A stretch of 64,000 nucleotides of DNA, taken from the NCBI GenBank assembly GCA_030586155.1, contig CP130741.1, positions 2,474,680-2,538,679 of the forward strand, in the 5' to 3' direction. Position 1 is the stretch's first letter; each line of letters opens with the position of its first letter. Shown here in pieces: positions 47,565 to 61,380 of this stretch. The notes beneath the pieces are model-generated. The model worked only from the letters and a program-made list of their open reading frames with translations, had not been told where the DNA came from and did no database searches. The translations under genes and the position numbers were made by a program. The DNA comes from Eubacteriaceae bacterium ES3 (GTDB lineage Bacteria > Bacillota > Clostridia > Eubacteriales > Eubacteriaceae).

Positions 47565-48959
47565 ATGAATAAAAAACAGATTGTCGGCATCGCTCTGGGA
47601 ATCCTGGTTCTGTTAGCCAGTATTTTCTTACCTATCCCTGAAGGTTTGACTGAAATCGGATTTCGGACCATCGGACTGCTGATTTTTTTCCTGGTTTTGC
47701 TTATTTTCGAATCTCTGCCGGTTGGGATTATCTGCTTTATCAGTCTAGCCCTTTTACCGCTTTTAGGGGTGACCAAGAATTTAGCCAGTGGTTTGACAGG
47801 TTTTTCCAACACCATGCTTTTCTTTGTTATCGCCTCTTTTGGCCTGGCAGAAGCAGTAACTTCAACACCAATTGTCAGGCGAATTCTATACGCCATTATC
47901 AAGAGCTTTGGCAAGGACGTAAAAACCTGTATACTGGCCATTATGATCTCCGGAACAATCGTATCTTCTATGGTTACTGATGTGCCTACGGTGGTGGTTT
48001 TTATGGGTATCGGGAGCAGTTTTTTAAAGCTTTTTGAAAACGAGGCCGACCGAAAAAAAACTGCCCGACCCTTAATGATCGGAATCCCCATTGCGATTAT
48101 GCTGGGGGGAATTATGACTCCAGCAGGCAGTGGTATCAATATCCTGACCATCGGACTGCTCCAGGAGATAGCCGGTATTCAGATTACCTTTATTCAATGG
48201 ATGGTTTGTGCTATCCCGATAGTCATTATCATGGTACCTTTTTCATGGTGGCTGCTGATAAAGATTTTCCCTCCCGCAGACATTGAACATGACCGCGTTC
48301 AAACCTACCTTGAAAGCATCGCCATTACTGAAGGACTACAGACGATTGAAAAAAAGGTCCTGACCATCGGTGCCACAATGCTTTTTTTCTGGATACTGAG
48401 TTCATTTGTTTCCGGTATTGACGTATCAGTTGTCGCCCTGTTGGGCTGCTCCCTATTCTTCATGCCGGGAATCAACGTTCTAAGCTGGGAGCAATATGTA
48501 AAAGCGGTCTCCTGGACTTCCTTTATTTTAATCGGTACTGTTCTATGTATCGCCAATACACTGGTTACCAACGGTGTCAGTGAATGGTTTGTCAGTCATG
48601 TCCTGCCTGCTTCTCTGACACTAACCGTGATGCAAGGTGTCCTATTTGTCTCTATAATCGCTTTTGTGGTCATGCTGGTGGTACCTGTAGCCCCGGCCCT
48701 GATTGGGGTTTTATCCCCGGTTATTGTCAGTATTGCTCTGACCACGGGCATTAATCCGGCTCTTTTAATTATCACCCTGGGGCTTTGTGCCGGGAATTGT
48801 TATCTGTTCCCCATCGATACCATTCCCCTCATAACCTACACAGCCGGTTATTACAAAATGATGGATATGCCTAAGGCAACCATTTATATGCAATTGGCCT
48901 TCATCGTCCTTTGTACCATCTGGCTGCCAATCGGCGGGCGACTGATCGGACTGGTTTAA
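47565..48959 (+). CDS. DASS/SLC13-type sodium:anion symporter
   Basis: 464 residues, about 12 membrane segments. ASFGLAEAVTSTPIVRRILY, the SNT-like ATPAGSGINI region near residue 185 (MTPAGSGINILTIGLLQEIA), and a second SNT-like segment APALIGVLSPVIVSIAL with PIDTIPLITYTAGY near the C-terminus. The family moves dicarboxylates, sulfate or aromatic acids with Na+. As it follows an O-demethylase locus, import of an aromatic acid is plausible. GAGGTG ribosome site. Confidence 0.83.
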   Translation: MNKKQIVGIALGILVLLASIFLPIPEGLTEIGFRTIGLLIFFLVLLIFESLPVGIICFISLALLPLLGVTKNLASGLTGFSNTMLFFVIASFGLAEAVTSTPIVRRILYAIIKSFGKDVKTCILAIMISGTIVSSMVTDVPTVVVFMGIGSSFLKLFENEADRKKTARPLMIGIPIAIMLGGIMTPAGSGINILTIGLLQEIAGIQITFIQWMVCAIPIVIIMVPFSWWLLIKIFPPADIEHDRVQTYLESIAITEGLQTIEKKVLTIGATMLFFWILSSFVSGIDVSVVALLGCSLFFMPGINVLSWEQYVKAVSWTSFILIGTVLCIANTLVTNGVSEWFVSHVLPASLTLTVMQGVLFVSIIAFVVMLVVPVAPALIGVLSPVIVSIALTTGINPALLIITLGLCAGNCYLFPIDTIPLITYTAGYYKMMDMPKATIYMQLAFIVLCTIWLPIGGRLIGLV

Positions 48960-48982
48960 TTCTTCTCTATAAATAAGAAATA

Positions 48983-49036
48983 AAAAAAAGGCTGCTGCCG
49001 ACTGACCACAACGGTCACCGGCTAGCAGCCTTTTTG
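48983..49036. terminator. Bidirectional terminator between the DASS gene and hydA
   Basis: AGGCTGCT pairs with AGCAGCCT around a CGACTGACC...GGTCACCGG inner structure; A-run before, TTTTT after. Confidence 0.85.
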
Positions 49037-49051
49037 ATGTTTAAAACTAGA

Positions 49052-50806
49052 TTAGATCATTTTAGGTTTTTCAGAATAAGTCGTGTGAAGAATGTCATGG
49101 GCAACATGACTGTTAGGCTCTTCCAGGAATTCTTCGTAGATCCGTTTAACAGATGGGCTCTGGTGCGATTTACGATATTTTAACACCTGAGCATCTTCAT
49201 TATATAAAGCTTTAGCCCGTTCTGTGCGGATATCTATATCAATTTGATCTTTAGGTGCGACAATTGGTTGTCCACCACCGTTTACACAACCACCCGGACA
49301 GGCCATCAGCTCAATAAATGACACATCGGATAATTTTCCGGCTTTTAAATCTTCCATAACGGTTTTAATATTATTTCCACCGTGAGCGACCAGAACATTA
49401 ACATCCATTTCCGGTGTAACAGAAACGGTTGCCCGTTTAATGCCTTCTACGCCACGAACCATTTCATAATCGATTTCCTGGATATCTTTGTCATTCAAAA
49501 TATCAGCCAGGGTTCGAACTGCGGCTTCCATAACACCACCAGTTGCGCCAAAAATAACGGCTGCACCTGTCGATTCACCATAGTATTCATCAAAACTTTC
49601 GTCTGGTAATTTCGTGAACATGATTCTGGCTTCTTTAATCATTCTTGCCAGTTCACGGGTAGTAATTGAAACATCAACATCTGCCAGGCCATCTTTCGAT
49701 GCCAGTTCTTCACGCTGTACTTCATATTTTTTAGCAGTACATGGCATAACCGATACAACAAACATATCTTTAGGATCAATTCCGTTTGCTTTTGCATAGT
49801 GCGATTTTAACAGGGCTCCTGTCATATTCTGTGGCGATTTACAGCTTGACAGATGAGGAATCATTTCCGGATAATAGGTTTCGATATATTTAACCCAGCC
49901 AGGTGAACAGGAAGTGATCATCGGCAGAACGCCATTATTATTAATCCGTCCTAATAGTTCTGTTCCTTCTTCCATAATTGTCACATCAGCGCCAAAATCA
50001 GTATCGAAGACTTTATCAAATCCCAGTCTTTTGAGTGATGCCACCATTTTACCTGTTACCGCAGTTCCCATAGGCAGTCCGAATTCTTCACCCAGAGCAG
50101 CACGAACGGCTGGCGCAGTCTGAACAACAACCATTTTTGAAGGATCAGATATTGCGTCCCAGACCTGTCGGATATTTGATTTTTCGGTTAAAGCACCAAC
50201 TGGACAATTGACGATACACTGTCCACAATTGATACAGCCTACCTCGGCCAGCGATTTATCGAAGACTGGTTGAACCTGTGATGTAAAACCACGGCCTACA
50301 GCTCCCAGAACTGCAACTCCCTGCACGCTGCTACATACAGCTGAACAGCGTTTACACAGGATACATTTGCTTTCATCCCGAACAATAGAGGTTGACATAT
50401 TATCAATTAAATGTCCAGAACGTTCCCCTTCAAATGGGACATCAGATACGCCCAAATCTTTAGCCATGGACTGCAACTCACAGTTTTCGCTACGGACACA
50501 GGTTGTACATTCCCGGTTATGGTCAGAGAGAATCAGCTCCAAATTCACACGTCGAGCTTCTCTGACCTTTTCAGAATTAGTCAGGACCTCAATCCCATTG
50601 GCAACTGGATACACGCAGGAAGCCTGCAGAGCTCTAGCACCGGCGATTTCCACCAGACACATTCTACAAGCACCAATTTCATTGATATCCTTGAGATAAC
50701 ACAATGTTGGAATATCAATGTTTTTCATTCTGGCAGCTTCCAGCACAGTTGTACCTTCCGGGACAGTCATTTCCTGACCGTTAATTTTAAATGTTACTTC
50801 TTTCAT
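49052..50806 (-). CDS. hydA: [FeFe]-hydrogenase catalytic subunit HydA of the electron-bifurcating complex
   Basis: 584 residues. Domains in order: [2Fe-2S] ferredoxin (1-80; CYLKDINEIGACRMC), His-Cys [4Fe-4S] site (HNRECTTCVRSENC), two [4Fe-4S] sites (CILCKRCSAVC, CINCGQCIVNC), H-cluster domain (about 225-510) and small-subunit-like C-terminus. H-cluster motifs: L1 TSCSPGW (Ser where TSCCPxW has its second Cys), L2 MPCTAKK, L3 ELMACPGGCVNGGGQP. Makes or oxidises H2. In Acetobacterium the HydABCD complex reversibly splits electrons of H2 between ferredoxin and NAD. Last gene of hydCEDBA. Confidence 0.95.
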   Translation of the reverse strand: MKEVTFKINGQEMTVPEGTTVLEAARMKNIDIPTLCYLKDINEIGACRMCLVEIAGARALQASCVYPVANGIEVLTNSEKVREARRVNLELILSDHNRECTTCVRSENCELQSMAKDLGVSDVPFEGERSGHLIDNMSTSIVRDESKCILCKRCSAVCSSVQGVAVLGAVGRGFTSQVQPVFDKSLAEVGCINCGQCIVNCPVGALTEKSNIRQVWDAISDPSKMVVVQTAPAVRAALGEEFGLPMGTAVTGKMVASLKRLGFDKVFDTDFGADVTIMEEGTELLGRINNNGVLPMITSCSPGWVKYIETYYPEMIPHLSSCKSPQNMTGALLKSHYAKANGIDPKDMFVVSVMPCTAKKYEVQREELASKDGLADVDVSITTRELARMIKEARIMFTKLPDESFDEYYGESTGAAVIFGATGGVMEAAVRTLADILNDKDIQEIDYEMVRGVEGIKRATVSVTPEMDVNVLVAHGGNNIKTVMEDLKAGKLSDVSFIELMACPGGCVNGGGQPIVAPKDQIDIDIRTERAKALYNEDAQVLKYRKSHQSPSVKRIYEEFLEEPNSHVAHDILHTTYSEKPKMI

Positions 50807-50824
50807 CGTTTTTAAAACCCCCTC

Positions 50825-52624
50825 TTATGCCTTTATTACTGCGCCAAATGGACAGGCTTCAATACAGGCACCACACTTAATACAAGCCTCTGTATCGATG
50901 GTATACGGTTTTTTCTTTTCGCCGCTGATAGCAGAAACAGGACATTTTTTCGCACAGATGCCACAGCCTTTACAGGTTTCTGGCACAATGGTAAAGTCAA
51001 GCAGGTGTTTACAAACGCCAGCCGGACATTTTTTATCACGGATATGGGCTTCATATTCGTCTCTAAAGAATTTGATGGTAGAAAGTACCGGGTTAGGTGC
51101 TGTTTGTCCCAGACCGCAAAGGGCAGATGACTTGATCCCCACAGCCAGTTCTTCAAGCCGTTCAATATCGCCTTCTTCACCTTTACCATCGCAGATTCGT
51201 TCAAGAATCTCCAGCATTCTCTTGGTTCCGATACGACATGGCGGACATTTACCACATGATTCGTCCTGAGTAAAGTCTAAGAAGAAGCGGGCTACATCGA
51301 CCATACAGTTGTCTTCATCCATTACGATCAGACCACCGGAACCCATCATAGAGCCAATTGCAATCAGGTTATCATAATCAATTGGTGTGTCTAAAAGATC
51401 TGCTGGAATACATCCGCCCGAAGGACCACCGGTTTGAGCCGCTTTAAACTCTTTTCCATTTGGAATTCCGCCACCGATTTCAAAAATAATCTCACGCAGG
51501 GTTGTTCCCATTGGGATTTCCAGAAGACCGGTATTATTGATCTTACCACCTAAGGCAAATACTTTGGTTCCTTTTGATTTTTCAGTACCAACTGAAGCAA
51601 ACCATTCTGACCCATTTAAAATGATAGCTGGTATATTAGCATAGGTTTCAACATTGTTTAAAACGGTTGGTCGGCCAAATAAACCTTTATTAGCAGGGAA
51701 TGGCGGACGTGGACGTGGTTCACCTCGTTTACCTTCAACAGAATTCATTAAAGCAGTTTCTTCACCACAAACGAAGGCACCGGCACCCAATCGAATTTCT
51801 AAATCGAAAGAGAAGTTTGAATCAAAAATATTGTTCCCCAGGATTCCGTAGTCTTTAGCCTGATCAATAGCAATTTGCAGACGATCAACGGCAATCGGAT
51901 ATTCCGCACGAACATAAACATAGCCTTTTTCCGCTCCTACAGCGTATCCGGCAATGGCCATCGCTTCGATTAGAGCATTAGGATCTCCTTCTAAGACAGA
52001 ACGGTCCATAAATGCACCCGGGTCACCCTCGTCGGCATTACAGGCTACAAATTTAACACCGTCTTCGGAGACTGCGTCATGGGCGAACTGCCATTTTAAA
52101 CCAGTTGGGAATCCACCGCCGCCACGGCCTCGGAGTCCGGAAGCTTTAATCTCATCGATTACATCTTGAGGACTCATAGAACCCAATACTTTTTCCAGAG
52201 CCATATATCCATTAAAAGCAATGTATTCATCAATATCTTCGGGGTTAATAACACCACAGTTAGCCAGGGCGATTCTTTTCTGTTTTTTGAAAAAGCCCAG
52301 TTCATTAATTGATAACGGGTGCTGTCCGTCACCTTTTTCAGAATAGATCAGTCTTTCTAAAGGACGTCCCTTAACTAGGTGTTCTTCGACCATTTCCGGA
52401 ATGTCGCTGGTTTCAACCCGACTATAAAAAGTACCTTCGGGATAAACAATAACCACTGGGCCCAGCTCACATAATCCAAAACATCCTGTAATAATAATTT
52501 CAATTTCTTCCAGAATGTCATGTTTAACCAGTTCTTTTCTTAATTCCTGTGCCAATACCTGGGATCCTGACGAAGTACACCCAGTACCCCCGCAGATCAG
52601 TATCTGAGAACGTTTATATGCCAT
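50825..52624 (-). CDS. hydB: HydB, flavin NuoF-like subunit of the bifurcating hydrogenase
   Basis: 599 residues. N-terminal thioredoxin-like [2Fe-2S] domain (CGGTGCTSSGS, TGCFGLCELGP). NuoF core: GLRGRGGGGFPTGLKWQFA (FMN/NADH site), GAGAFVCGEETALMNSVEGK RGEPRPRPPFP, LNNVETYANIPAI, SLBB-like part, ESCGKCPPCRIGTKRMLEIL ([4Fe-4S]). The C-terminal 2x[4Fe-4S] ferredoxin domain reads CKGCGICAKKCP and CIKCGACIEACP. Site of NAD reduction and electron bifurcation. Lies 18 bases from hydA. Confidence 0.95.
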   Translation of the reverse strand: MAYKRSQILICGGTGCTSSGSQVLAQELRKELVKHDILEEIEIIITGCFGLCELGPVVIVYPEGTFYSRVETSDIPEMVEEHLVKGRPLERLIYSEKGDGQHPLSINELGFFKKQKRIALANCGVINPEDIDEYIAFNGYMALEKVLGSMSPQDVIDEIKASGLRGRGGGGFPTGLKWQFAHDAVSEDGVKFVACNADEGDPGAFMDRSVLEGDPNALIEAMAIAGYAVGAEKGYVYVRAEYPIAVDRLQIAIDQAKDYGILGNNIFDSNFSFDLEIRLGAGAFVCGEETALMNSVEGKRGEPRPRPPFPANKGLFGRPTVLNNVETYANIPAIILNGSEWFASVGTEKSKGTKVFALGGKINNTGLLEIPMGTTLREIIFEIGGGIPNGKEFKAAQTGGPSGGCIPADLLDTPIDYDNLIAIGSMMGSGGLIVMDEDNCMVDVARFFLDFTQDESCGKCPPCRIGTKRMLEILERICDGKGEEGDIERLEELAVGIKSSALCGLGQTAPNPVLSTIKFFRDEYEAHIRDKKCPAGVCKHLLDFTIVPETCKGCGICAKKCPVSAISGEKKKPYTIDTEACIKCGACIEACPFGAVIKA

Positions 52625-52644
52625 ATTGCTTTTCTCCTCCTCTA

Positions 52645-53043
52645 CTAAGCTTTCTTAGTGGGTTCAATGATTTTGCCGTCTACTACCGTCATGGTGTATT
52701 CTTCAACAACTTTTCCGTTTGTCAGGTGTTCATCTACAATACGGCTGACTTTTTCCGGTGTCATTTTTATATAAGTAACTTTTTCACCCTCAGCATTATA
52801 CACTTCTACCATTGGCTCAAGACGACATGAACCAATACAACCTGTTTGAGCAACAGTTACATCTGTTAAATTTTTTTCTGCTACTTCTTCCATCAGTTTA
52901 ACCATTACTGGTCGCGCTCCGGCAGCAATTCCGCAAGTTGCCATCCCAACAACCACACGATAACCCTCTTTACCTTTTCTTAAATTCATTTCATTGAATT
53001 TTTTTTCGCGAATTTCTTTTAATTCAGCTAATGACTTTGCCAT
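52645..53043 (-). CDS. hydD: HydD-like thioredoxin-fold [2Fe-2S] protein
   Basis: 132 residues. A helical start (LAELKEIREKKFNEMNLRKG) precedes a thioredoxin-like ferredoxin fold with Cys in MATCGIAAGARP and in TGCIGSCRLEP. That gives three of the four expected cluster cysteines by eye; the fourth is not clear, so cluster binding is uncertain. Position between hydB and the GHKL gene matches HydD of the Acetobacterium complex. Confidence 0.8.
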   Translation of the reverse strand: MAKSLAELKEIREKKFNEMNLRKGKEGYRVVVGMATCGIAAGARPVMVKLMEEVAEKNLTDVTVAQTGCIGSCRLEPMVEVYNAEGEKVTYIKMTPEKVSRIVDEHLTNGKVVEEYTMTVVDGKIIEPTKKA

Positions 53044-53046
53044 TTT

Positions 53047-53592
53047 TTATCCCTCCATTATTTCTTCCAGGCCTTCAGCCACATTTTCCCTAATCCACTC
53101 AAGAATTTCAATCTCATTAAGGCTCACTACTTCTAGCGCAGCTCTTATTTCCCGAGTGTCAAAAACGAAAATATTTTCATTATAAATATGTTGGTATAAC
53201 AGATCTGCCGCTCCAAATGACATCACCATGGTCACAATGGTATCCGCCATATTCCCCAGGGGTACACGATCAATATGATCGTAGATAAAGCTGGCTGAAA
53301 CCGTAGTTCCCAAGCCTTCCCGTGACTGGATCTCAAATTCTCCTCCGCATTGTTTTGCCGCTGCTTCAAACATCGAAAGCCCCAGTCCCACCCGTCTGGT
53401 GGTTCTGCTGGTAACAAAAGGATCGGTAATAACTGCCAGCCTGTCACTGGGAATCCCTTTTCCGTTATCTTCTATTTCCATTGAAAGAAGATTTTTTTTT
53501 ACGGCTTCGTTGATTGTTAATTTAATCAGGCTGGCCTGAGCTCGAACAGAATTTTGTGTGATATCCAGCAAATGAAGCGAAAGTTCTTTCAT
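53047..53592 (-). CDS. hydE: HydE, GHKL-type ATP-binding protein
   Basis: 181 residues. Histidine-kinase-like ATPase: DITQNSVRAQASLIKLTI (N box), EIEDNGKGIPSDRL (G1), VGLGLSMFEAAAKQCGGEFE (G2), GLGTTVSASF. No phospho-acceptor His domain, so it is an isolated ATPase. Conserved beside hydC and hydD in acetogens and clostridia; not to be confused with the radical-SAM maturase HydE. Role unknown. Confidence 0.8.
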   Translation of the reverse strand: MKELSLHLLDITQNSVRAQASLIKLTINEAVKKNLLSMEIEDNGKGIPSDRLAVITDPFVTSRTTRRVGLGLSMFEAAAKQCGGEFEIQSREGLGTTVSASFIYDHIDRVPLGNMADTIVTMVMSFGAADLLYQHIYNENIFVFDTREIRAALEVVSLNEIEILEWIRENVAEGLEEIMEG

Positions 53593-53594
53593 AA

Positions 53595-54065
53595 TTAATA
53601 TTTTGCCAATATATCAGCCACGTCGTTTGCAACCAGACGGCCGTAAACTTCTTCATTAATCATCATAACCGGAGCCAGACCACAAGCACCTACACAGCGA
53701 GTTGCATCCACTGAAAATTTACCGTCTTCGGTAGTATCACCAGTGTTAATCCCCAACTGGCCATTGACCTTATCCAGAATATCCTGTGAACCACGGACAT
53801 AGCAGGCCGTTCCCAGGCAAACCCCAATTTTGTATTTTCCTTTTGGTTTTAAGGTGAACTGAGAGTAAAAAGTTGCTACTCCGTAGACCTCTGTTAATGG
53901 AATCTTTAGTTCATCAGCAATGGTGCTCTGAAGTTCCAGTGGTAAATAACCATACTTTTCCTGGGTTTCCTGCAGGATTCCCATCAGACATCCCGGTACA
54001 TCTTTCTGCGCCGCGACGATTTCTTTCACCACATCCAAGTTTTCAACTGGTACATAATCAGCCAA
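53595..54065 (-). CDS. hydC: HydC, NuoE-like [2Fe-2S] subunit
   Basis: 156 residues. PGCLMGILQETQEKYGYLPL, EVYGVATFYSQFTLKPKGKY, the cluster ligands CLGTACYVRG and CVGACGLAPVM. Shuttles electrons in the bifurcating hydrogenase. First gene of the five-gene operon; GAGGAGG ribosome site. Confidence 0.93.
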   Translation of the reverse strand: MADYVPVENLDVVKEIVAAQKDVPGCLMGILQETQEKYGYLPLELQSTIADELKIPLTEVYGVATFYSQFTLKPKGKYKIGVCLGTACYVRGSQDILDKVNGQLGINTGDTTEDGKFSVDATRCVGACGLAPVMMINEEVYGRLVANDVADILAKY

Positions 54066-54129
54066 TTCAATAACCTCCTCAAAATTTATGCAAACCTTTA
54101 CGATTGCAATTACACTTTTTGTATACTCG

Positions 54130-54158
54130 ATTATAGCATAGCGGTCTTGCCTCTGTTA
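54130..54158 (-). promoter_or_regulatory. Predicted extended -10 promoter of hydCEDBA
   Basis: Minus strand TATAAT (54130-54135) with TGC directly before it and a weak -35 (TAACAG). About 65 bases before the hydC start. Confidence 0.5.
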
Positions 54159-54392
54159 TATAAATATCAGATAAATTTTTACCGGTTTTGCACAAATATT
54201 TAATAATTTGGGGGCATTTTTTATGAATTATATCAATTTTTTTTCTCATAAAGACAGACCTGATAAAAACAGAAACTTTTTTGCCCCTAGCAAACCCGGT
54301 TCCTTCTCTTTATTTTTTGTTAATTATTTGTCAATTTTACCACAAATTCTAAAATCTTTCAAATCAAAAAAATAACCAATTTTTTGCAATTA

Positions 54393-54442
54393 AAAAACTG
54401 CCATTTGAGTTTCAATGCACTTGAATCAATACGCAGTTTTAA
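54393..54442 (-). terminator. Terminator of the DRTGG/hydrogenase-like/PHP cassette
   Basis: Minus strand AAAACTGC ... GCAGTTTTTTAA, 36 bases past the PHP gene stop. Loop about 33 bases, so only a moderately good terminator; partial read-through into hydC is possible. Confidence 0.6.
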
Positions 54443-54477
54443 GTCTATAGCTATTTTAATCAGTTGAAAGTATCGTT

Positions 54478-55215
54478 TCAGATTTGTCTGCTGTCATTTT
54501 CTCCCAGAAAAGAAATCAAGGTTTCCCGCTGCAGGTCAGGCAGTTCAATAAAAAACTCCCTTTCAGCGATATCCATCAGCTGGTGAGCATCTGAGGCTTT
54601 AATAAACTGATAGGGTTTAAAAAAGCGAAAACTTTTTTTCACAGTTTCAATTTCGCTGTGTCTGGAAACTTCCAGCGTCTTAATTGGTAACTCAGGCGGA
54701 ACAAAGCCAAGAGATGCTACAATACTGTAAGATTTTCGATCGATATGGGCCGGTACAATAACTCCGCCAAAACCGGAAACCAAATCATAAAGTTCATCAA
54801 TCCCTAAATCAGTCGCTGAAATCAACAGTTTGTCTACTTCCCCGATCACCTGATCGTTATTGTCCAAAATCAGTTGGGGCCCAAAGATAGCTTTATCATT
54901 CTTAATGTCCGGCAGGTGGCTGTAAAGCAAGTCTCCAAACTCCAGTGCATCAGAAACGTTCTTGAAATAAGCTAATACATGGGCTTCCTCTTTGGTCGTT
55001 ACTTCAATCCCGGGCAACAGACAAATCCCCTGATTAAGCACTTCAATCACTTCAGCCACCGCCGGTAGATTCTTTGCTGAATTGTGATCAGTCACTGCAA
55101 TATAGTCCAGTTCTTTTAGAATTGCCATATTGACAATATTATTTGGTGTCATCTCCTCCTCGCCACAAGGCGAGAGACAGGAATGAATATGAAGATCGAC
55201 GGCAATCTTTTCCAT
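54478..55215 (-). CDS. PHP-domain phosphoesterase of the hydrogenase-sensor cassette
   Basis: 245 residues. DLHIHSCLSPCGEEEMTP (HxH), YIAVTDHNSAKNL, PGIEVTTKEEAHVLAY, IVPAHIDRKSYS, IKASDAHQLMD. PHP metal sites are complete. Starts inside the stop of the DRTGG gene (TAATG overlap), so translation is coupled. Conserved neighbour of DRTGG and hydrogenase-like genes in anaerobes. Substrate unknown; a nucleotide or phosphohistidine signal is inference. Confidence 0.85.
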   Translation of the reverse strand: MEKIAVDLHIHSCLSPCGEEEMTPNNIVNMAILKELDYIAVTDHNSAKNLPAVAEVIEVLNQGICLLPGIEVTTKEEAHVLAYFKNVSDALEFGDLLYSHLPDIKNDKAIFGPQLILDNNDQVIGEVDKLLISATDLGIDELYDLVSGFGGVIVPAHIDRKSYSIVASLGFVPPELPIKTLEVSRHSEIETVKKSFRFFKPYQFIKASDAHQLMDIAEREFFIELPDLQRETLISFLGENDSRQI

Positions 55216-55547
55216 TAGATGCCGGCTTTCGCCAGAACCCGACAGACCTCATAGGCATTTAATTCAGTTGTTACGATCGGCACATCCTCCAGGATAGCCC
55301 GTTCCAATGCAGAATCCTCAATTTCTGCACCTTCCGGGATTATAATACAAGCCATTTCCAATAAGGTTGCCACCGCTACAATATTGACATGGGTTTGAAT
55401 AGTCACCCAGGCTGAGCTGGCTTTGGCATTCGCCATCACCCAGCTTAAAAGATCTCCGGTATAGCCTTCTTTAATTTCGCCTTCCAAACCAACTTCCGGA
55501 TTCAGGCAGGTGAATTCACTCTTTTTACACAAGTCACTTACTTTCAT
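55215..55547 (-). CDS. DRTGG-like domain protein, copy 2
   Basis: 110 residues from the ATG at 55545-55547; the upstream reading is inside the preceding gene. MKVSDLCKKSEFTCLNPEVG, GYTGDLLSWVMANAKASSAW VTIQTHVNIVAVATLLEMAC IIIPEGAEI, PIVTTELNAYEVCRVLAKAG. Small ligand-binding-like fold. Overlaps the hydrogenase-like gene by 14 bases. A second copy is at 57338-57688. Confidence 0.8.
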   Translation of the reverse strand: MKVSDLCKKSEFTCLNPEVGLEGEIKEGYTGDLLSWVMANAKASSAWVTIQTHVNIVAVATLLEMACIIIPEGAEIEDSALERAILEDVPIVTTELNAYEVCRVLAKAGI

Positions 55548-56898
55548 TCTTAGCTTCTCCCTTTTCCTCATTATTCTTTCCGGTTGGTTGGGCCAACTGC
55601 AACAACTCATTGGTCAGCTGCGAAAGTTCCAGCAACCGGTCTTTCAAAACAAAGACACAATCTATTTCCCGGGCCTTGCCGATGACAATATCTTCAGCCA
55701 GGGCCCGGCAGCCCGGTGCCCCGCAGGACCCACAGTCCAACCGTGGCAGCCGTTCTTCGATCTCTTCGATCTTTTTCATTTTTTCGATGGCTTTATTGAT
55801 GTCGTGATCCAAGGGTTCGGGACTGCGCGGGAGAATTCGCTCCTTAATATGCATCATCCCCGAATTATAGATTTCCTTAACATACTCCTCTGACATATGT
55901 ACGATAGAAGTTTCACTTAATTGCTTAACCCGCTCTTCCATGTACATTTTTGCCACATAATTGTTTTCAACGGTTAAGCAGCCACCCACACAACCGCCGA
56001 TACAGGCCAGGCCTTCGAAAAACTCAATTGACTCCAGTTTTCCACATTCAATTTCCTCCAACACATTGATAACATTTTGAATCCCATCGACATGGAGAAT
56101 ATTTTTATTTTTCAGGTATTTGCTCTCCCCGCCACTCAAGGCCCAGGAAAACCCTTCGGCAGTAGAATTGACAATCCCTTCATCCAGTTGGCAGTGGCCC
56201 AGTTGCTTATGGAGATCGGCAAAAATATCTTTCATGGCAATAGCTCCATCGATATGTCCATAAGAATCATATTCACTGGAAGCAGGATTATTGACCATCG
56301 TCGCCTTGGCTGCGCAGGGTGTAATAAAAAACACACCCACTTCCCCGTTTTTAAAGCCTTTCTGATCCCTCAGTCGTTTTCTCACCAGCCTTGCCGTCAG
56401 AGCCATTGGAGATTTTAAACGACAGATATTATCAGTCAGTTCAGGAAACCGAACCTGAATCAGTTTAACTACTGCCGGACAGGCCGATGATATAAGTGGT
56501 TTTGGATAACGTTTGGCATGAAACTCATATTTGAGTGCCCGTCCCACTACTTCAGCACCATAAGCGACTTCCACCACTTCGTCAAAGCCCAGAGCTTTAA
56601 TCGCCGAAAGCACTTCAACAATAGAATATTTGGGTTTAAACTGTCCCAAAATCGAAGGCGCCGGAATGGCTACCTTGTATTTGAATTGGGAAATTTTTGC
56701 CAGCGGGTCAGTTTTTGCCAATTTTGCGTGGTGGGGACATACCCGAATACACTCTCCACAATCGATACACTTTGATTCAATTATAATCGCTTTTCCGTCC
56801 CGAACTCGGATGGCTCCGGTGGGACAATTCCTCAAACAGGTTGTACACCCCAAACATTTATCCGAGTCGAGGTAAACGGAATGCAAAAGCTTTTCCAT
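55534..56898 (-). CDS. HydS-like putative sensory [FeFe]-hydrogenase with C-terminal 4Fe-4S domain
   Basis: 454 residues. Two [4Fe-4S] sites (CLGCTTCLRNCP 15-26, CIDCGECIRVCP 44-55), H-cluster domain (about 75-315), then a C-terminal Fe-S domain (CGSCGAPGC 389-397 with Cys414) of the PF04060 type and a coiled C-terminus. L1 reads SSACPAV: Ala139 replaces the proton-transfer Cys of TSCCPxW while Cys140, the cluster ligand, stays. L2 is TPCAAK (Cys195; Met of MPC lost). L3 is ACIGGCVGG (Cys299, Cys303). Loss of the proton-transfer Cys is reported for putative sensory HydS enzymes. It sits between a GHKL ATPase and a DRTGG protein, upstream of hydCEDBA. A sensor role is inferred. Confidence 0.85.
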   Translation of the reverse strand: MEKLLHSVYLDSDKCLGCTTCLRNCPTGAIRVRDGKAIIIESKCIDCGECIRVCPHHAKLAKTDPLAKISQFKYKVAIPAPSILGQFKPKYSIVEVLSAIKALGFDEVVEVAYGAEVVGRALKYEFHAKRYPKPLISSACPAVVKLIQVRFPELTDNICRLKSPMALTARLVRKRLRDQKGFKNGEVGVFFITPCAAKATMVNNPASSEYDSYGHIDGAIAMKDIFADLHKQLGHCQLDEGIVNSTAEGFSWALSGGESKYLKNKNILHVDGIQNVINVLEEIECGKLESIEFFEGLACIGGCVGGCLTVENNYVAKMYMEERVKQLSETSIVHMSEEYVKEIYNSGMMHIKERILPRSPEPLDHDINKAIEKMKKIEEIEERLPRLDCGSCGAPGCRALAEDIVIGKAREIDCVFVLKDRLLELSQLTNELLQLAQPTGKNNEEKGEAKNESK

Positions 56899-56921
56899 TC
56901 CTCATCCTCTATTTCTTTAAT

Positions 56922-57341
56922 CTATGTAGTTTTAAAATGCATTTCAATTCGAGTGCCCACACCTGGCTCAGATGTGATCTCGAAGGCGTCAGAATTATTA
57001 CGCATATTGGGAAGCCCCATCCCGGCCCCAAATCCCATTTCCCGAGCTTCATCACCAGCCGTAGAGTAGCCTTCCTGCATAGCAAGGGAAATATCTGGAA
57101 TCCCGGGACCGTTATCTTCAATAATCAAGAGCAGTTCACCCTCTAAAACCGTTAAACAAATGGTCCCGCCATCGGAATGAATGGCCAGATTCATCTCACC
57201 TTCATAGCCGGCTATCGACACTTTTCGAATTGTCTTATTATTGATCCCCAACTGTTGCAGGGTTTTTTTAATTTTTCGGGAAGCCTGGCCGGCCGATTCG
57301 AAATCGCCCCGCATTACTTCAAATTTCAATTCATAACTCAT
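56922..57341 (-). CDS. GHKL-type ATP-binding protein (anti-sigma-kinase-like)
   Basis: 139 residues. KTLQQLGINNKTIRKVSIAG YEGEMNLAIHSDGG (N box), LLIIEDNGPGIPDISLAMQ (G1), GFGAGMGLPNMRNNSDAFEI (G2). It resembles RsbW/SpoIIAB-type kinases more than sensor histidine kinases. Overlaps the DRTGG gene upstream by 4 bases and precedes the hydrogenase-like gene by 23. Probably receives or gives a phosphate signal within the cassette (inference). Confidence 0.82.
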   Translation of the reverse strand: MSYELKFEVMRGDFESAGQASRKIKKTLQQLGINNKTIRKVSIAGYEGEMNLAIHSDGGTICLTVLEGELLLIIEDNGPGIPDISLAMQEGYSTAGDEAREMGFGAGMGLPNMRNNSDAFEITSEPGVGTRIEMHFKTT

Positions 57342-57688
57342 CTTTTATTAGCTCCGGAAAGGCCATGCTGATAGAGGACTCCACAGCATTCAAAAAGGAT
57401 CATCCGGGTCGTCATCACCAGCATATCCATTTCCATCGCCAAAGCGATCAGGTCCTCTGACGGTCTTTTGTTTCTGACAAAAACTACGCAACGCATATTG
57501 GCCATCTCCGCTGTGTTTAAAACCTGTCTGTTAATCAGGCCAGTTAAAAGAATTGCATCATCATTGGCATAACAAAGCACGTCACTCATCAGATCGCTAC
57601 CAAAACCGCAAAAAACCTCATCCTCCAGGTGATCCTCACCCGTGAGTACAACGGCATTTAATAAATCCTTAATTTCTTTGAGTTTCAT
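57338..57688 (-). CDS. DRTGG-like domain protein, copy 1
   Basis: 116 residues. MKLKEIKDLLNAVVLTGEDH, EVFCGFGSDLMSDVLCYAND DAILLTGLINRQVLNTAEMA, RCVVFVRNKRPSEDLIALAM EMDMLVMTTRMILFECCGVL. First gene of the five-gene cassette. Same fold as 55215-55547. Confidence 0.82.
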   Translation of the reverse strand: MKLKEIKDLLNAVVLTGEDHLEDEVFCGFGSDLMSDVLCYANDDAILLTGLINRQVLNTAEMANMRCVVFVRNKRPSEDLIALAMEMDMLVMTTRMILFECCGVLYQHGLSGANKR

Positions 57689-57768
57689 AATACTCCTTTT
57701 TACCTGTTCTCAAATGAACCACTTAAGTCTAACTCCAATCTCCGGAAATGTAAAGGGTTACTTTTTTA

Positions 57769-57796
57769 ACGACCAGGGCAAAGCCCATGGTCGTTT
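57769..57796 (+). other. Hairpin between the DRTGG and YhaN-like genes
   Basis: ACGACCA and TGGTCGT around GGGC-AAA-GCCC, followed on the plus strand by TTTGG. On the minus strand no U-run follows, so it is not a clear terminator for the genes that flank it. Confidence 0.4.
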
Positions 57797-57809
57797 TGGT
57801 CGGTCCAGA

Positions 57810-60119
57810 TTACAATTCGATCCGGTGGTATTTTCGCCCCAGAGATTCGAGGATTCTATCCTCATCACTACCGCAGGTAAACAAAATGATCTGCTTATCT
57901 TTTGATAAATCAGAAAGCAGTTTAAGAGCCTGAGTTTTTCGATTTTCATCATAGCGGACAAAGGGTTCGTCCAGGATAAAAGGCATGTCCCGGGTAATCA
58001 TATTACCCATCCCATAACGAAAGGCAAAATGAACCTGATCCATGGTCCCGGCGCTGAGCTGGTCAGCTTCTTTAAAATCACCGCCAGACGGATCAACCAC
58101 TTTAACCTGCATGGCTTCATCGATTTTAACTCCCTTATAGCGGCCGGTCAGGGTCTCCAACACATCACCAATCGAATCATTGAGTTCCGGTGCTGATTCC
58201 CGATGTGTTTCTTTTTGCATCCGGGCCATAACCTTAAGAGCCGCGTCGCAGGCTGCAATTTCTCTGTTATATGATGAAATTTGCGCTTCCAGGGATTCTA
58301 TGGTTTCTGCTATTTCCACCGGCAGATCCACTCCTTCGGTCAGGGCTGCATTTTCACCTTCCAGCCGTGCTATTTCCTTCCCGATCATTAACAGCTCATC
58401 TGCTTTGGGATTGGTCTTATTCCAGGTATTAGAAATCCGCTGTTCTTCGCTTTCTGTCACAGATTCACGCAAACTCTCTATCTGATCTTTGTTATCCATG
58501 AAATTTTCTTTTAACTCTTTGATTTCCCGAGCAATCACGCAGTTTTCAGCATAGGCCTCAACTGAATCAACGCCGTTTAGCTCAAATTTTTTCTCCAGTT
58601 CTCTTTTTATTCCTCGACTTTGTTCAAACAGTATTTCAAAACCGGTCTGATGACGCCCCAATTGGACAGAAAGCAGTTCCTTTTCGTTGAACAATTGTTC
58701 CAGTTCCCGCTGGGCACGACTGGCTTTTTTAAAAAAGTCTTCGAATTCCTGTCCATTGGAAAAATCGTATTTTTTTAATATCTCTTCCTGATCCATGGTC
58801 AGCTGAATCTCATAACGGCTTCTGCGGATTTGAAAGGCCGAAATAATCCCAAAGATCGAACCACCTACACCAACAATCATCAGCACCGATCCGATAAGCA
58901 GGGCCGCAGTCTGATCCAAACCATCAATCGGTGTAAAACCCATCACATTAAGCCAAATCACTAAAAGGCCTAGAAAAGTTACAACGATAGAAGCTGTACT
59001 GATCAAAACATTTTTTTTCTGAATCGCATCCTCTTTGCCCGTTTTTTCCTCTCCAAAAACTTCGTAATCGGCGTGAATCATTTCCCAGTTGTTGCCTTCC
59101 AGGACCTGTTCTTTTGCTTCTACCCGCGTTCGCAATGCTTTTAACTGTTCAGTCAGGTCATCAATTTCTTTCTGGATGTATTGGATCTGATCTTCCAGGC
59201 GGTCAATCTGACCTTGGGTGGTTCTTAAATTTTCAAGGGTTTCCTGATTATAGCTTTCTTTATCTCCCAAAATCTCCAAACGTTCTGTGATTGCCAGATT
59301 TTCTTTTTCCAGTTCGGTGATTTTCTCATAAGATTTTAATAAATCGCGTTTGTTTCGGACTTCTGTTTCCTGAATCAAATAATTATTTTCTGTTTCCACT
59401 TTTTTAAGCCGCTTGGACAGTCTGGTAATTTTCTCCTGATTATCTGCCACTCTCTGATAAGCTTCCTGGGCTTCTTTTAAAGTCTCTCTGAGTTCCTCTC
59501 TCTTTCTCATCAAGAGACCGATTTTTGATTTAGACTGACCAGCACGACCGACACTTTTTTTACGATCTTCCAGATTTTTAGCAACCTTGCTGAGATTTAA
59601 ATCGAAGTTTCCAGCATTTAAGAATTCCAAGTAAGAATCTCTGATTTCTTCACTTGAAGCCGGATCAAAGTCATAACCGGTCTGCTTCAGATTCACGGTC
59701 TGATTGTAAATCCCCGGTGTTATTCCCAGATTTCCCAAAGGCAAATGTTGTCTGATTACGCCATCGTATGCGAATTTTTTTGTCAGTTCGCTGCCAGTTG
59801 CATTATCAAAGATTGTCAGGCTATCCTTGCCACGCAGGAAATTTCGCTCCAGACGCAGTTCTTCACCATCTAATTCGTATACTAAGGAGCCACTGTAGTC
59901 AAACTGGGCCCAGGGCATATATTTTTCATAATCATCGCTATAGGTCTTTTTCTTTCGGTAGGGTTTGAAAAAGCCAAAGAACATCCCCTGAATAAAGGCC
60001 TGCATGGTCGTTTTACCAGCTTCATTCTCACCATAGACGATATTTAAGCCTGGTTTTAGCGACAAAGTGCGATCTTTAAATTTCCCAAAAGCTTTGATTC
60101 TAAGCGCTTTTATTTTCAT
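57810..60119 (-). CDS. yhaN: YhaN/SbcC-like AAA ATPase with coiled coil and two membrane segments
   Basis: 769 residues. N-terminal Walker A in GLNIVYGENEAGKTTMQAFI. Long coiled coils (about 185-330 and 450-600). Two hydrophobic segments in the middle (TASIVVTFLGLLVIWLNVMG and ALLIGSVLMIVGVGGSIFGI, about 375-425) suggest membrane attachment. C-terminal signature QLSAGTMDQVHFAFRYGMGN, Walker B MPFILDEPFVRYDENR. Stop and start overlap the nuclease gene by 4 bases. YhaN partners YhaO in Firmicutes; DNA end processing is likely but unproved for this branch. Confidence 0.88.
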   Translation of the reverse strand: MKIKALRIKAFGKFKDRTLSLKPGLNIVYGENEAGKTTMQAFIQGMFFGFFKPYRKKKTYSDDYEKYMPWAQFDYSGSLVYELDGEELRLERNFLRGKDSLTIFDNATGSELTKKFAYDGVIRQHLPLGNLGITPGIYNQTVNLKQTGYDFDPASSEEIRDSYLEFLNAGNFDLNLSKVAKNLEDRKKSVGRAGQSKSKIGLLMRKREELRETLKEAQEAYQRVADNQEKITRLSKRLKKVETENNYLIQETEVRNKRDLLKSYEKITELEKENLAITERLEILGDKESYNQETLENLRTTQGQIDRLEDQIQYIQKEIDDLTEQLKALRTRVEAKEQVLEGNNWEMIHADYEVFGEEKTGKEDAIQKKNVLISTASIVVTFLGLLVIWLNVMGFTPIDGLDQTAALLIGSVLMIVGVGGSIFGIISAFQIRRSRYEIQLTMDQEEILKKYDFSNGQEFEDFFKKASRAQRELEQLFNEKELLSVQLGRHQTGFEILFEQSRGIKRELEKKFELNGVDSVEAYAENCVIAREIKELKENFMDNKDQIESLRESVTESEEQRISNTWNKTNPKADELLMIGKEIARLEGENAALTEGVDLPVEIAETIESLEAQISSYNREIAACDAALKVMARMQKETHRESAPELNDSIGDVLETLTGRYKGVKIDEAMQVKVVDPSGGDFKEADQLSAGTMDQVHFAFRYGMGNMITRDMPFILDEPFVRYDENRKTQALKLLSDLSKDKQIILFTCGSDEDRILESLGRKYHRIEL

Positions 60120-61234
60120 TTAAGCACCCCCTCTTTAAGCATCGCTTCAATAGAGTAAAGGATGGCCCGTTTTCGCAGTTCTTCGTCCTGAATCTCCTGA
60201 AGTTCCAACAGAAAGCTTCCCACAGGATTGTCTTTATTTTCATCAATCAGCTTCTCGATATCAATATCAGTTTCTAAACTCGAAAGATCTGTTTCGACAT
60301 AATAAAAGGAATCCTCCAGATCATCTTCAATCCAATCCAAATGGATTTCCGGATCAATGAGTCCGGTCAGCTTAAGCCGGTAATAATTGTTCATCCGATT
60401 ATCCCGGGAGTCACAGGTTGTTGCTTTATCGAGAATATCCGAGTAGGAATCTTCGGGAGTAACTGAAATCTCCAGTGACTCATAACATCTGGAATGAATG
60501 GGATTAAAGCGGTTCTTGGTGAGAAACAGCTGCTTCTCATAATCCACTTCCACCCGCGCCGATAAGAAGCCATGGTCCCCAGTCTCCCCAAAATCTAGAG
60601 GAACCGGCGAGCCGCAATAGGCTACGCCGCCGGAAGTAATTCCCGGCTTGTGAATATGCCCGAGACAAATGGCATGAAAGCCTTTTTCTTCAATTTTTTT
60701 AAGGTTAATGGGCAGGTAAGAACTCTTTGAAGCCACTTCTCCGTGCATCAAAAGAATATTATATCGACCCTCATTGAGACGCAAACGATCAAAAGAAAGT
60801 TCAGGAAATTCCCGGTATTCGTTCTCCACCCATGAAAAACCATAAACTTCAGTATTTAATTCCTGTATATAAACAGACCGAAACCGGTCTTCATTGAAAA
60901 TATAAACATTTCGGGGCCACTCCACCTTTTTATAAGGAGAATCTTCCCCATTGTAATCGTGATTTCCAGTAACAATAATCACCCAGGCCTTATCAAGACT
61001 TTTAAAACTTTCGGCCACCCGTTTAATATCCATTGTCAGCACATTGACTGAATCGAAAAGATCTCCGGCAATCAGCACCAGTTCAATCTCTTTTTCTTTT
61101 GCATAGGCAATCATATGATCAAAGGCCTTCCACAACTCTTTACGCTTGGACTTTCCATAATAATTGCCCTGCTGTAAAAAGGTAAAGGGGCGCCCGAGAT
61201 GAAAATCTCCAGTATGTATAAAACTCTTAAGCAT
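60116..61234 (-). CDS. yhaO: YhaO/SbcD-like metallophosphoesterase nuclease
   Basis: 372 residues from the ATG at 61232-61234 (MLKSFIHTGDFHLGRPFT) with GGAGG placed before it; the ATG 21 bases upstream is unlikely. Metal motifs: HTGDFHLG, LIAGDLFDSVN, VTGNHDY, MHGEVA, CLGHIHKPG. Calcineurin-like fold of Mre11/SbcD. The C-terminal cap (about 265-372) binds the partner ATPase. Two-gene unit with the YhaN-like protein. Confidence 0.88.
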   Translation of the reverse strand: MLKSFIHTGDFHLGRPFTFLQQGNYYGKSKRKELWKAFDHMIAYAKEKEIELVLIAGDLFDSVNVLTMDIKRVAESFKSLDKAWVIIVTGNHDYNGEDSPYKKVEWPRNVYIFNEDRFRSVYIQELNTEVYGFSWVENEYREFPELSFDRLRLNEGRYNILLMHGEVASKSSYLPINLKKIEEKGFHAICLGHIHKPGITSGGVAYCGSPVPLDFGETGDHGFLSARVEVDYEKQLFLTKNRFNPIHSRCYESLEISVTPEDSYSDILDKATTCDSRDNRMNNYYRLKLTGLIDPEIHLDWIEDDLEDSFYYVETDLSSLETDIDIEKLIDENKDNPVGSFLLELQEIQDEELRKRAILYSIEAMLKEGVLK

Positions 61235-61380
61235 CCACTTGCCTCCAGTTTTCAAATTTACAGATTGTCACTACCGGAAATCAATTCCGTTTCCGAAATA
61301 AGTCGCTTACACATGACTTCTGTTTTATAAAGATACGCTTTATTGTACCATTATCAGGGCTAAAAATGAAGCTATATAAA

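Follow-up and report, generated by a model that had tools for sequence, protein, structure and literature searches.

Among the closest known counterparts of the [FeFe]-hydrogenase analyzed here is TamHydS of Thermoanaerobacter mathranii (PMC8163306, PMC10407848, PMC13104023), a Group D protein that takes up the H-cluster and turns over H2 (PMC8163306). In the sections of these accounts that were consulted, HydS is studied alone, DRTGG, PHP and GHKL2 partners are not mentioned, and the way in which Group D hydrogenases, which lack a PAS domain, transmit their signal is posed as an open question (PMC8163306, PMC13104023). The Group C (M2f) proteins TmHydS (PMC10055695) and HfsB (PMC5707799) likewise possess a sensory hydrogenase domain with an altered active site, according to the portions consulted, but they carry a PAS domain. 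Since deletion of the PAS-type gene hfsB is reported there to raise adhE expression and hydrogenase activity (PMC5707799), sensory hydrogenases can act on expression. Here we analyze a stretch of 64,000 nucleotides from the acetogen-like Eubacteriaceae bacterium ES3 (contig CP130741.1, positions 2,474,680 to 2,538,679 of the forward strand; hereafter the window), in which a PAS-less HydS is encoded in a cassette of five genes, DRTGG1, GHKL, HydS, DRTGG2 and PHP, ahead of an electron-bifurcating hydrogenase operon. Judging from gene order and natural fusions, these genes, often with a second GHKL ATPase (GHKL2), very probably form one device. What is new is the cassette, the Group D sensor type itself being already known; among the titles and abstract beginnings listed by a literature search, with subscription journals mostly outside its coverage, none describes a DRTGG-GHKL-HydS-PHP module, and the one paper listed for DRTGG together with hydrogenase, on Desulfovibrio, is unrelated.

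All genes of the cassette and of the hydrogenase operon lie on the minus strand. The cassette begins with DRTGG1 (57338-57688, 116 aa), followed by a SpoIIAB/RsbW-like GHKL ATPase (56922-57341, 139 aa; PF02518, E 1e-10), HydS (55534-56898, 454 aa; PF02906, PF04060 and Fer4), DRTGG2 (55215-55547, 110 aa), which starts inside the end of HydS, and a PHP-domain metallo-phosphoesterase-like protein (54478-55215, 245 aa; PF02811, E 6.6e-07). Given that DRTGG1 and GHKL overlap by 4 nt, HydS and DRTGG2 by 14 nt and DRTGG2 and PHP by 1 nt, with a single gap of 23 nt between GHKL and HydS, translational coupling of the cassette genes is likely. The 14-nt overlap presumes that DRTGG2 starts at the ATG at 55547 and not at 55610, the start in the list of open reading frames; the former agrees with the aligned DRTGG2 proteins of relatives. 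A preliminary description of this DNA had reported five overlapping or nearly overlapping genes that point into hydC, and both coordinates and order are as it stated. The gap from PHP to hydC is 412 nt.

The same gene order recurs in relatives, which we refer to by locus (L), genome (G) and family (f) numbers. Neighbour counts are domain-based, were made on 80 named loci that are the best 80 of 559 confirmed on genome contigs, a sample that favours close relatives, and have as denominators the loci with enough flank. All 79 loci with at least 600 nt upstream have GHKL immediately ahead of HydS; DRTGG1 is found upstream in 69 of 74, while on the downstream side DRTGG2 is present in 68 of 76 and PHP in 62 of 72. 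The full DRTGG-GHKL-HydS-DRTGG-PHP set is present in 46 of the 51 loci with full flank, a recurrence that rules out chance clustering. This order is found in Bacillota and in one Spirochaetales assembly (L097). A search of viral contigs gave 39 stretches, none of them confirmed, and a plasmid search gave 16 records with a best identity of 42.8%. Six loci (L050, L052, L059, L061, L087, L098) carry GHKL-HydS without DRTGG or PHP, although in L098 the upstream sequence is too short to judge DRTGG1. Upstream of GHKL there is a response-regulator gene in L050, L052, L061 and another GHKL-HydS pair, L157, and a CheW gene in L059; neither kind of gene is upstream of GHKL in L087.

Members of the cassette are also joined in single proteins. 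We found fusions of DRTGG1 to GHKL (L047, L144-L148), of GHKL to HydS (L149 and L150, both of family f115), of HydS to DRTGG2 (L142 and L143, both of family f44) and, in one genome, of PHP to GHKL2 (L153). L047 alone comes from the best 80 named loci, the rest from hand-picked genomes, and Pfam confirms the fusions in L047, L142, L143, L144, L148, L149, L150 and L153. It is because GHKL invariably precedes HydS in the named loci with room for it, because the five-gene set is so rarely incomplete and because natural fusions join its members that we read the cassette as one device.

To place the window HydS among [FeFe]-hydrogenases, we compared its residues with those of described proteins. A Pfam scan matches it to PF02906 (E 2.1e-35) and, at residues 384-416, to PF04060 (E 3.8e-11). 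The L1 motif is SSACPAV, with Ala139 in place of the proton-transfer Cys and with Cys140, Cys195, Cys299 and Cys303 present, just as the preliminary description had claimed. That description had further set the protein apart by its missing PAS domain and its PF04060-like C-terminal cluster. Both features are there, the Pfam scan of HydS giving no PAS match and Cys389, 392, 397 and 414 sitting in the PF04060 match with the spacing Cx2Cx4Cx16C, but they are not peculiar to this protein, being published Group D traits in the sections consulted (PMC8163306, PMC13104023). In an alignment of 110 HydS sequences including that of the window, from which a score and length filter removed fragments and the broken L138 protein, residue 139 is Ala in 80 and Ser in 25, with Phe, Asp, Thr, Gly and His once each and Cys in none, and the four ligand and four C-terminal Cys are kept in all 110.

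The consulted part of PMC13104023 provides 17 TamHydS positions for comparison (C20, R30, R32, K35, R42, K58, S249, E252, D265, E289, D378, C379, S384, E392, D393, D403 and C404). Since HydS of T. wiegelii (L049) has the expected residue at 17 of 17 with unshifted numbering, it serves as our Group D anchor. The window HydS keeps 15; where TamHydS has R42 and S384, it has Lys43 and Ala394. Its Glu258, Glu295, Ser255 and Asp271 correspond to the Group D proton path E252-E289-S249-D265, and Thr193 occupies the position of M353, at which Group D has Ser or Thr instead of Met. As far as the TamHydS accounts were consulted, the two proteins are further alike in the replacement of C299, the lack of PAS, two N-terminal [4Fe-4S] motifs, the C-terminal Cx2Cx4Cx16C cluster, a hydroxyl residue for M353, the proton path, and a location near a bifurcating hydrogenase, here the operon at 49052-54065, and a histidine-kinase-like ATPase; those accounts also place an AraC-type regulator beside TamHydS, whereas none was seen at the window cassette. 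In a phylogenetic tree covering groups A, C and D, all 23 D rows cluster together with support 100/99 and exclude the four HydA rows and the three of group C; two long rows fall outside D, and the program flagged long branches separating the A side from the D side. Residues and tree together rule out that the window HydS is a catalytic Group A hydrogenase. We regard it as virtually certain, on the strength of its sequence, that it is a Group D putative sensory [FeFe]-hydrogenase, and the characterization of the protein as HydS-like in the preliminary description is borne out by Ala139, the retained ligand Cys, the TamHydS positions and the tree. Group D corresponds to M2e, a term reportedly coined in older surveys of clostridial hydrogenases.

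Two further residues bear on whether HydS still performs hydrogen chemistry. Lys198, which we take to correspond to the conserved Lys that in CpI binds a diiron-site cyanide ligand, is kept in 99 of the 110 HydS, as is Glu258, the window protein having both; 11 sequences are changed at 198, 11 at 258 and nine at both. Glu258 is the equivalent of TamHydS E252, whose exchange strongly lowers activity in the consulted account (PMC10407848). The ES3 genome encodes HydF and HydG, both above cut-off, and HydF is above cut-off in 48 of 56 HydS-positive genomes tested. Given how widely Lys198 and Glu258 are kept and how often HydF accompanies HydS, H2 chemistry appears to have been selected. These observations, along with the H2 turnover by TamHydS and its binding of the H-cluster in the account at hand (PMC8163306), argue against HydS being a pure Fe-S redox sensor, in which H2 turnover would be vestigial, reduced ferredoxin or an NADH-linked reductant would be the input everywhere and the H-domain would be a mere conformational switch. 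We consider that alternative unlikely, though family f39, described below, speaks for it.

The constant neighbour of HydS, the GHKL ATPase, has a profile that aligns with SpoIIAB, and the best structural match to its AlphaFold2 (AF2) model is SpoIIAB, with a template modelling (TM) score of 0.83, followed by RsbW. N-box residues Glu47 and Asn51 and the motifs GPGI and GFGAGMGL are invariant in 27 aligned sequences. The protein thus shares with the SpoIIAB and RsbW anti-sigma kinases a stand-alone GHKL fold with N-box Glu and Asn at matching spacing. Those systems differ from the cassette in employing a STAS antagonist and a sigma factor; a search confined to 10 proteins in and around the cassette found neither. 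A Pfam scan of the cassette proteins and GHKL2 likewise gave no match to a His-acceptor (HisKA) or receiver domain. The proposal in the preliminary description of a relay without a classic histidine kinase that uses an RsbW-like ATPase fits the sequence and the modelled structure.

The DRTGG and PHP proteins raise a different possibility. In the window, DRTGG1 and DRTGG2 score below the PF07085 cut-off of 25.2 bits, at 20.3 and about 23 bits (23.0-23.1), respectively, while their fused homologues in L047, L142, L143, L144 and L148 exceed it. The AF2 model of DRTGG1 has a predicted local distance difference test (pLDDT) score of 94.7, and its five best Foldseek matches in the PDB are solved DRTGG domains, the top one being that of AF1212. 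DRTGG1 also resembles the CBS-DRTGG regulatory region of the C. perfringens family II pyrophosphatase (3l31, 3l2b), which has the DRTGG fold and whose CBS domains have counterparts in HydS-less cassettes; the cassette differs in consisting of separate proteins without a pyrophosphatase domain. The model places the invariant DRTGG1 residues D32, S35, T49, G50 and N53 where two strands end and the helices after them begin. As such a cluster resembles a ligand pocket, Ser35 and Ser38 of DRTGG are no more than possible phosphorylation sites. PHP, whose closest solved relatives by sequence are Endonuclease Q and a 5'-3' exoribonuclease, and whose solved relatives are mostly nucleases and phosphoesterases, keeps H9, H11, D43, H44, E71, H79, H157, D209 and H211 in 26 sequences. 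Given these relatives, PHP is only a possible phosphatase, the role that the preliminary description assigned to it. Together with the CBS domains on GHKL in HydS-less cassettes, these features would suit a pathway in which an adenine (di)nucleotide, its level set by HydS and GHKL, is bound by DRTGG and broken down by PHP, with no protein phosphorylation. However, no nucleotide synthase is seen in the cassette, and PHP has an invariant SPC where SDG is the classic PHP motif. We give this explanation little credence.

GHKL2 (53047-53592, 181 aa; PF02518, E 2.8e-16) lies within the hydrogenase operon of the window. In four HydS-less and five f39 cassettes it directly follows PHP, to which it is fused in L153, and this ties it to the cassette and not solely to the hydrogenase. 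GHKL2 is possibly a frequent, non-obligatory sixth member.

As an explanation of the whole, we favour, at somewhat better than even strength, that HydS is the input subunit of a protein switch read by the SpoIIAB/RsbW-like ATPase; that the cassette has a signalling role of some kind is considerably more secure, and we deem it probable. The redox state of HydS would change, in ES3 probably by H2 acting at a slow H-cluster, by reduced ferredoxin, or by both, and the altered conformation would be read by the adjacent ATPase, perhaps acting as a kinase, in one complex with HydS, DRTGG1 and DRTGG2. PHP, and often GHKL2 as well, would act downstream, and the output would tune electron-transfer complexes linked to NADH and ferredoxin, in ES3 most likely the bifurcating hydrogenase encoded alongside. 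Read directly from sequence are the group membership, the intact Fe-S ligands and ATPase motifs, the conserved order, the fusions and the exchange of the input; complex formation, the signal, kinase activity and the target are inferred. That H2 is an input in ES3 seems to us reasonably likely.

Family f39 bears directly on the nature of the input. PF02906 proteins occur in 8 of 20 f39 genomes. Three of these (G247, G108, G403) have a catalytic hydrogenase, and it is in exactly these three that HydF and HydG are above cut-off. In the other five, G173, G223, G028, G295 and G379 (completeness 99%, 99%, 98%, 91% and 84%), the cassette HydS is the only PF02906 protein, and neither HydF nor HydG is found above cut-off in any of them. 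The f39 genomes are many-contig assemblies, so that absence is no proof, but the three positive relatives indicate that the searches work within this family. A weaker HydG-like match (E about 1e-60, below cut-off) in G028 and G295 probably belongs to another radical-SAM protein, since a match of this kind also occurs in G247 and in G070, a genome without PF02906 matches. The five HydS proteins keep all Fe-S Cys and have Gln at 198, the diiron-site Lys position, and at 258, the proton-relay position. Their sequences suggest that in f39 the cassette probably works without hydrogen chemistry, as a pure Fe-S redox sensor would. Missing maturases alone can mislead: six other HydS-positive genomes (G011, G016, G020, G063, G288, G394) have catalytic [FeFe]-hydrogenases and yet no HydF or HydG above cut-off, owing to assembly gaps or another maturation route.

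A second departure concerns HydS itself. From 398 genomes we hand-picked 80, 56 of them HydS-positive at E 1e-100 or better and 24 others, and the DRTGG1 profile matched (E 0.001 or better) in 56 of the 56 and in 7 of the 24, strongly in three of these seven (G009, G117, G150). Four genomes (G304, G387, G117, G150) have HydS-less cassettes composed of DRTGG1, a GHKL of 288-324 aa, DRTGG2, PHP and GHKL2. G304 and G387 additionally carry a HydS beside a DRTGG1, and the best HydS matches in G117 and G150 reach merely 4.5e-48 and 3.1e-41. The extra N-terminal part of the long GHKL is a CBS pair (PF00571, 99-110 bits). There are five such CBS-GHKL proteins in the four genomes, four of them in the HydS-less cassettes; the fifth (L125) is followed by a ferredoxin-like gene and then Rnf genes. 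The sequences suggest a swapped input, the CBS pair replacing HydS. An RnfC gene is also found close to the cassette in L126 and, in L137, immediately behind GHKL-HydS-DRTGG2; molybdopterin-oxidoreductase genes of the formate-dehydrogenase type are nearby in L131 and L139. In L123 and in L122, which is truncated where its contig ends, rex is at most 195 nt upstream. The CBS pair and the Rnf and formate-dehydrogenase-type neighbours would also suit a pure Fe-S redox sensor. Given the CBS swap and the f39 genomes with HydS only, the module is best read as a redox or energy relay for which H2 is a plausible input in ES3 but not everywhere. We advance tentatively, as somewhat short of an even chance, a broader proposal: DRTGG, GHKL and PHP, frequently joined by GHKL2, would be a redox or energy relay of general use in bacteria, with exchangeable inputs, namely the hydrogenase-derived HydS in most of the lineages seen and an adenine-nucleotide-type CBS pair in others. 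In one family or more, the hydrogenase fold would have given up its diiron site and its proton relay and would persist as an Fe-S switch. An enzyme family known chiefly for H2 production would then have been turned entirely to signalling.

The hydrogenase operon downstream of the cassette is a candidate target. It consists of hydC (53595-54065; PF01257, E 4.2e-51), GHKL2, a [2Fe-2S]-ferredoxin-like protein (52645-53043, 132 aa; PF01257, E 1.3e-06, 28.7 bits), hydB (50825-52624; PF01512 and PF10589) and hydA (49052-50806; NF040763, group A6, 872.9 bits against a cut-off of 765). By the order hydCEDBA, GHKL2 is probably hydE and the 132-aa protein hydD. In the consulted part of PMC3561251 (Table 6), six M2e genes have locus tags seven from the last gene of an A1 trio, a spacing that would fit HydS, DRTGG2, PHP, hydC, GHKL2, the 132-aa protein, hydB and hydA. 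A hydB gene lies downstream in 39 of the 53 named loci with at least 7 kb. This frequency, and the position of GHKL2 within the operon, could mean that the cassette serves the maturation, protection or inactivation of the bifurcating hydrogenase through direct contact with it, without any signalling. Such an accessory or assembly role is improbable in our estimation, for only 37 of the 46 complete cassettes have hydB and nine (L042, L054, L062, L063, L064, L070, L091, L108, L111) have none nearby, the cassette occurs in genomes in which no other [FeFe]-hydrogenase was found, and the CBS swap and the response-regulator, CheW or rex neighbours of some relatives point to signalling. Because of these nine loci and the f39 genomes, the module is broader than a dedicated hydrogenase controller, and we put the chance that its main target is the hydrogenase operon, as the preliminary description had proposed, at about even.

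Several points weigh against HydS as the input of a switch that serves the hydrogenase. The nine complete cassettes without hydB are among them, and GHKL2 was not found in the locus beside any of the nine. H2 is unlikely as a general signal, given the f39 cassettes beside which no other [FeFe]-hydrogenase, and no HydF or HydG above cut-off, was found in the genome. The fusions may amount to a handful of events, since they come from few families and in all six DRTGG1-GHKL loci rex overlaps the fusion gene by 4 nt; among the best 80 named loci, rex is next to the cassette in L047 only and so is no general neighbour. Finally, among the papers listed by the literature searches, none was found to report an experiment on any gene of a Group D cassette besides HydS. 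As to what the switch reading offers, the constancy of GHKL beside HydS, together with the fusions and the CBS swap, points to a concrete first partner of HydS, making the question of signal transmission testable in vitro. The hydrogenase-less f39 genomes cast doubt on the view of Group D proteins as H2 sensors and supply a control from nature in which H-cluster maturation is lacking. Should bifurcating hydrogenase, Rnf or formate dehydrogenase be tuned by the module, this would matter for the redox balance of acetogens and for anaerobic H2 cycling.

We also inspected the region ahead of hydC. An inverted repeat, ctgttatataaatatcag (54153-54170), overlaps the -35 element of a predicted promoter-like site (54159-54130, minus strand), and dyads that resemble it by eye occur at the matching place in L034 and L035. 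The best Rex operator candidate ahead of hydC, at 54317-54334 with two mismatches, was rejected; nothing corresponds to it in the closest relative, L034 (95% at HydS), where the Rex-site matches listed have four mismatches, so that it may be a chance match. At three mismatches or fewer, the window holds 7 Rex-like matches against 7.38 expected. Among relatives, Rex-like sites with at most one mismatch lie within 300 nt upstream of hydC in 10 of 50 loci (L041, L049, L053, L057, L067, L073, L076, L086, L088, L107) compared with 0.1 in shuffles, and upstream of DRTGG1 in 5 of 70 loci compared with 0.0. Rfam gave no match above gathering score in window positions 48900-58000.

Group C-like proteins were seen in several of the genomes. 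Near Group D cassettes, a hydrogenase domain of this kind is fused to PAS-HisKA-HATPase in L142 (11643-13979, minus strand) and L143 (10469-12772, minus strand) and to a PAS-sigma-54 activator in L148 (15831-18001, plus strand). The ES3 genome itself encodes, in one run at G000:C1:1050010-1053176 (L174:7011-10177), a 99-aa [2Fe-2S] ferredoxin-like protein, a 567-aa group C-like HydS-PAS and a SpoIIE-type phosphatase. It is a matter of speculation that the RsbW-like kinase of the cassette and this phosphatase could form a kinase-phosphatase pair. Directly upstream of the window cassette, at 57810-61255, are SbcC/SbcD-like genes, which also occur in L034-L037 and are probably unrelated.

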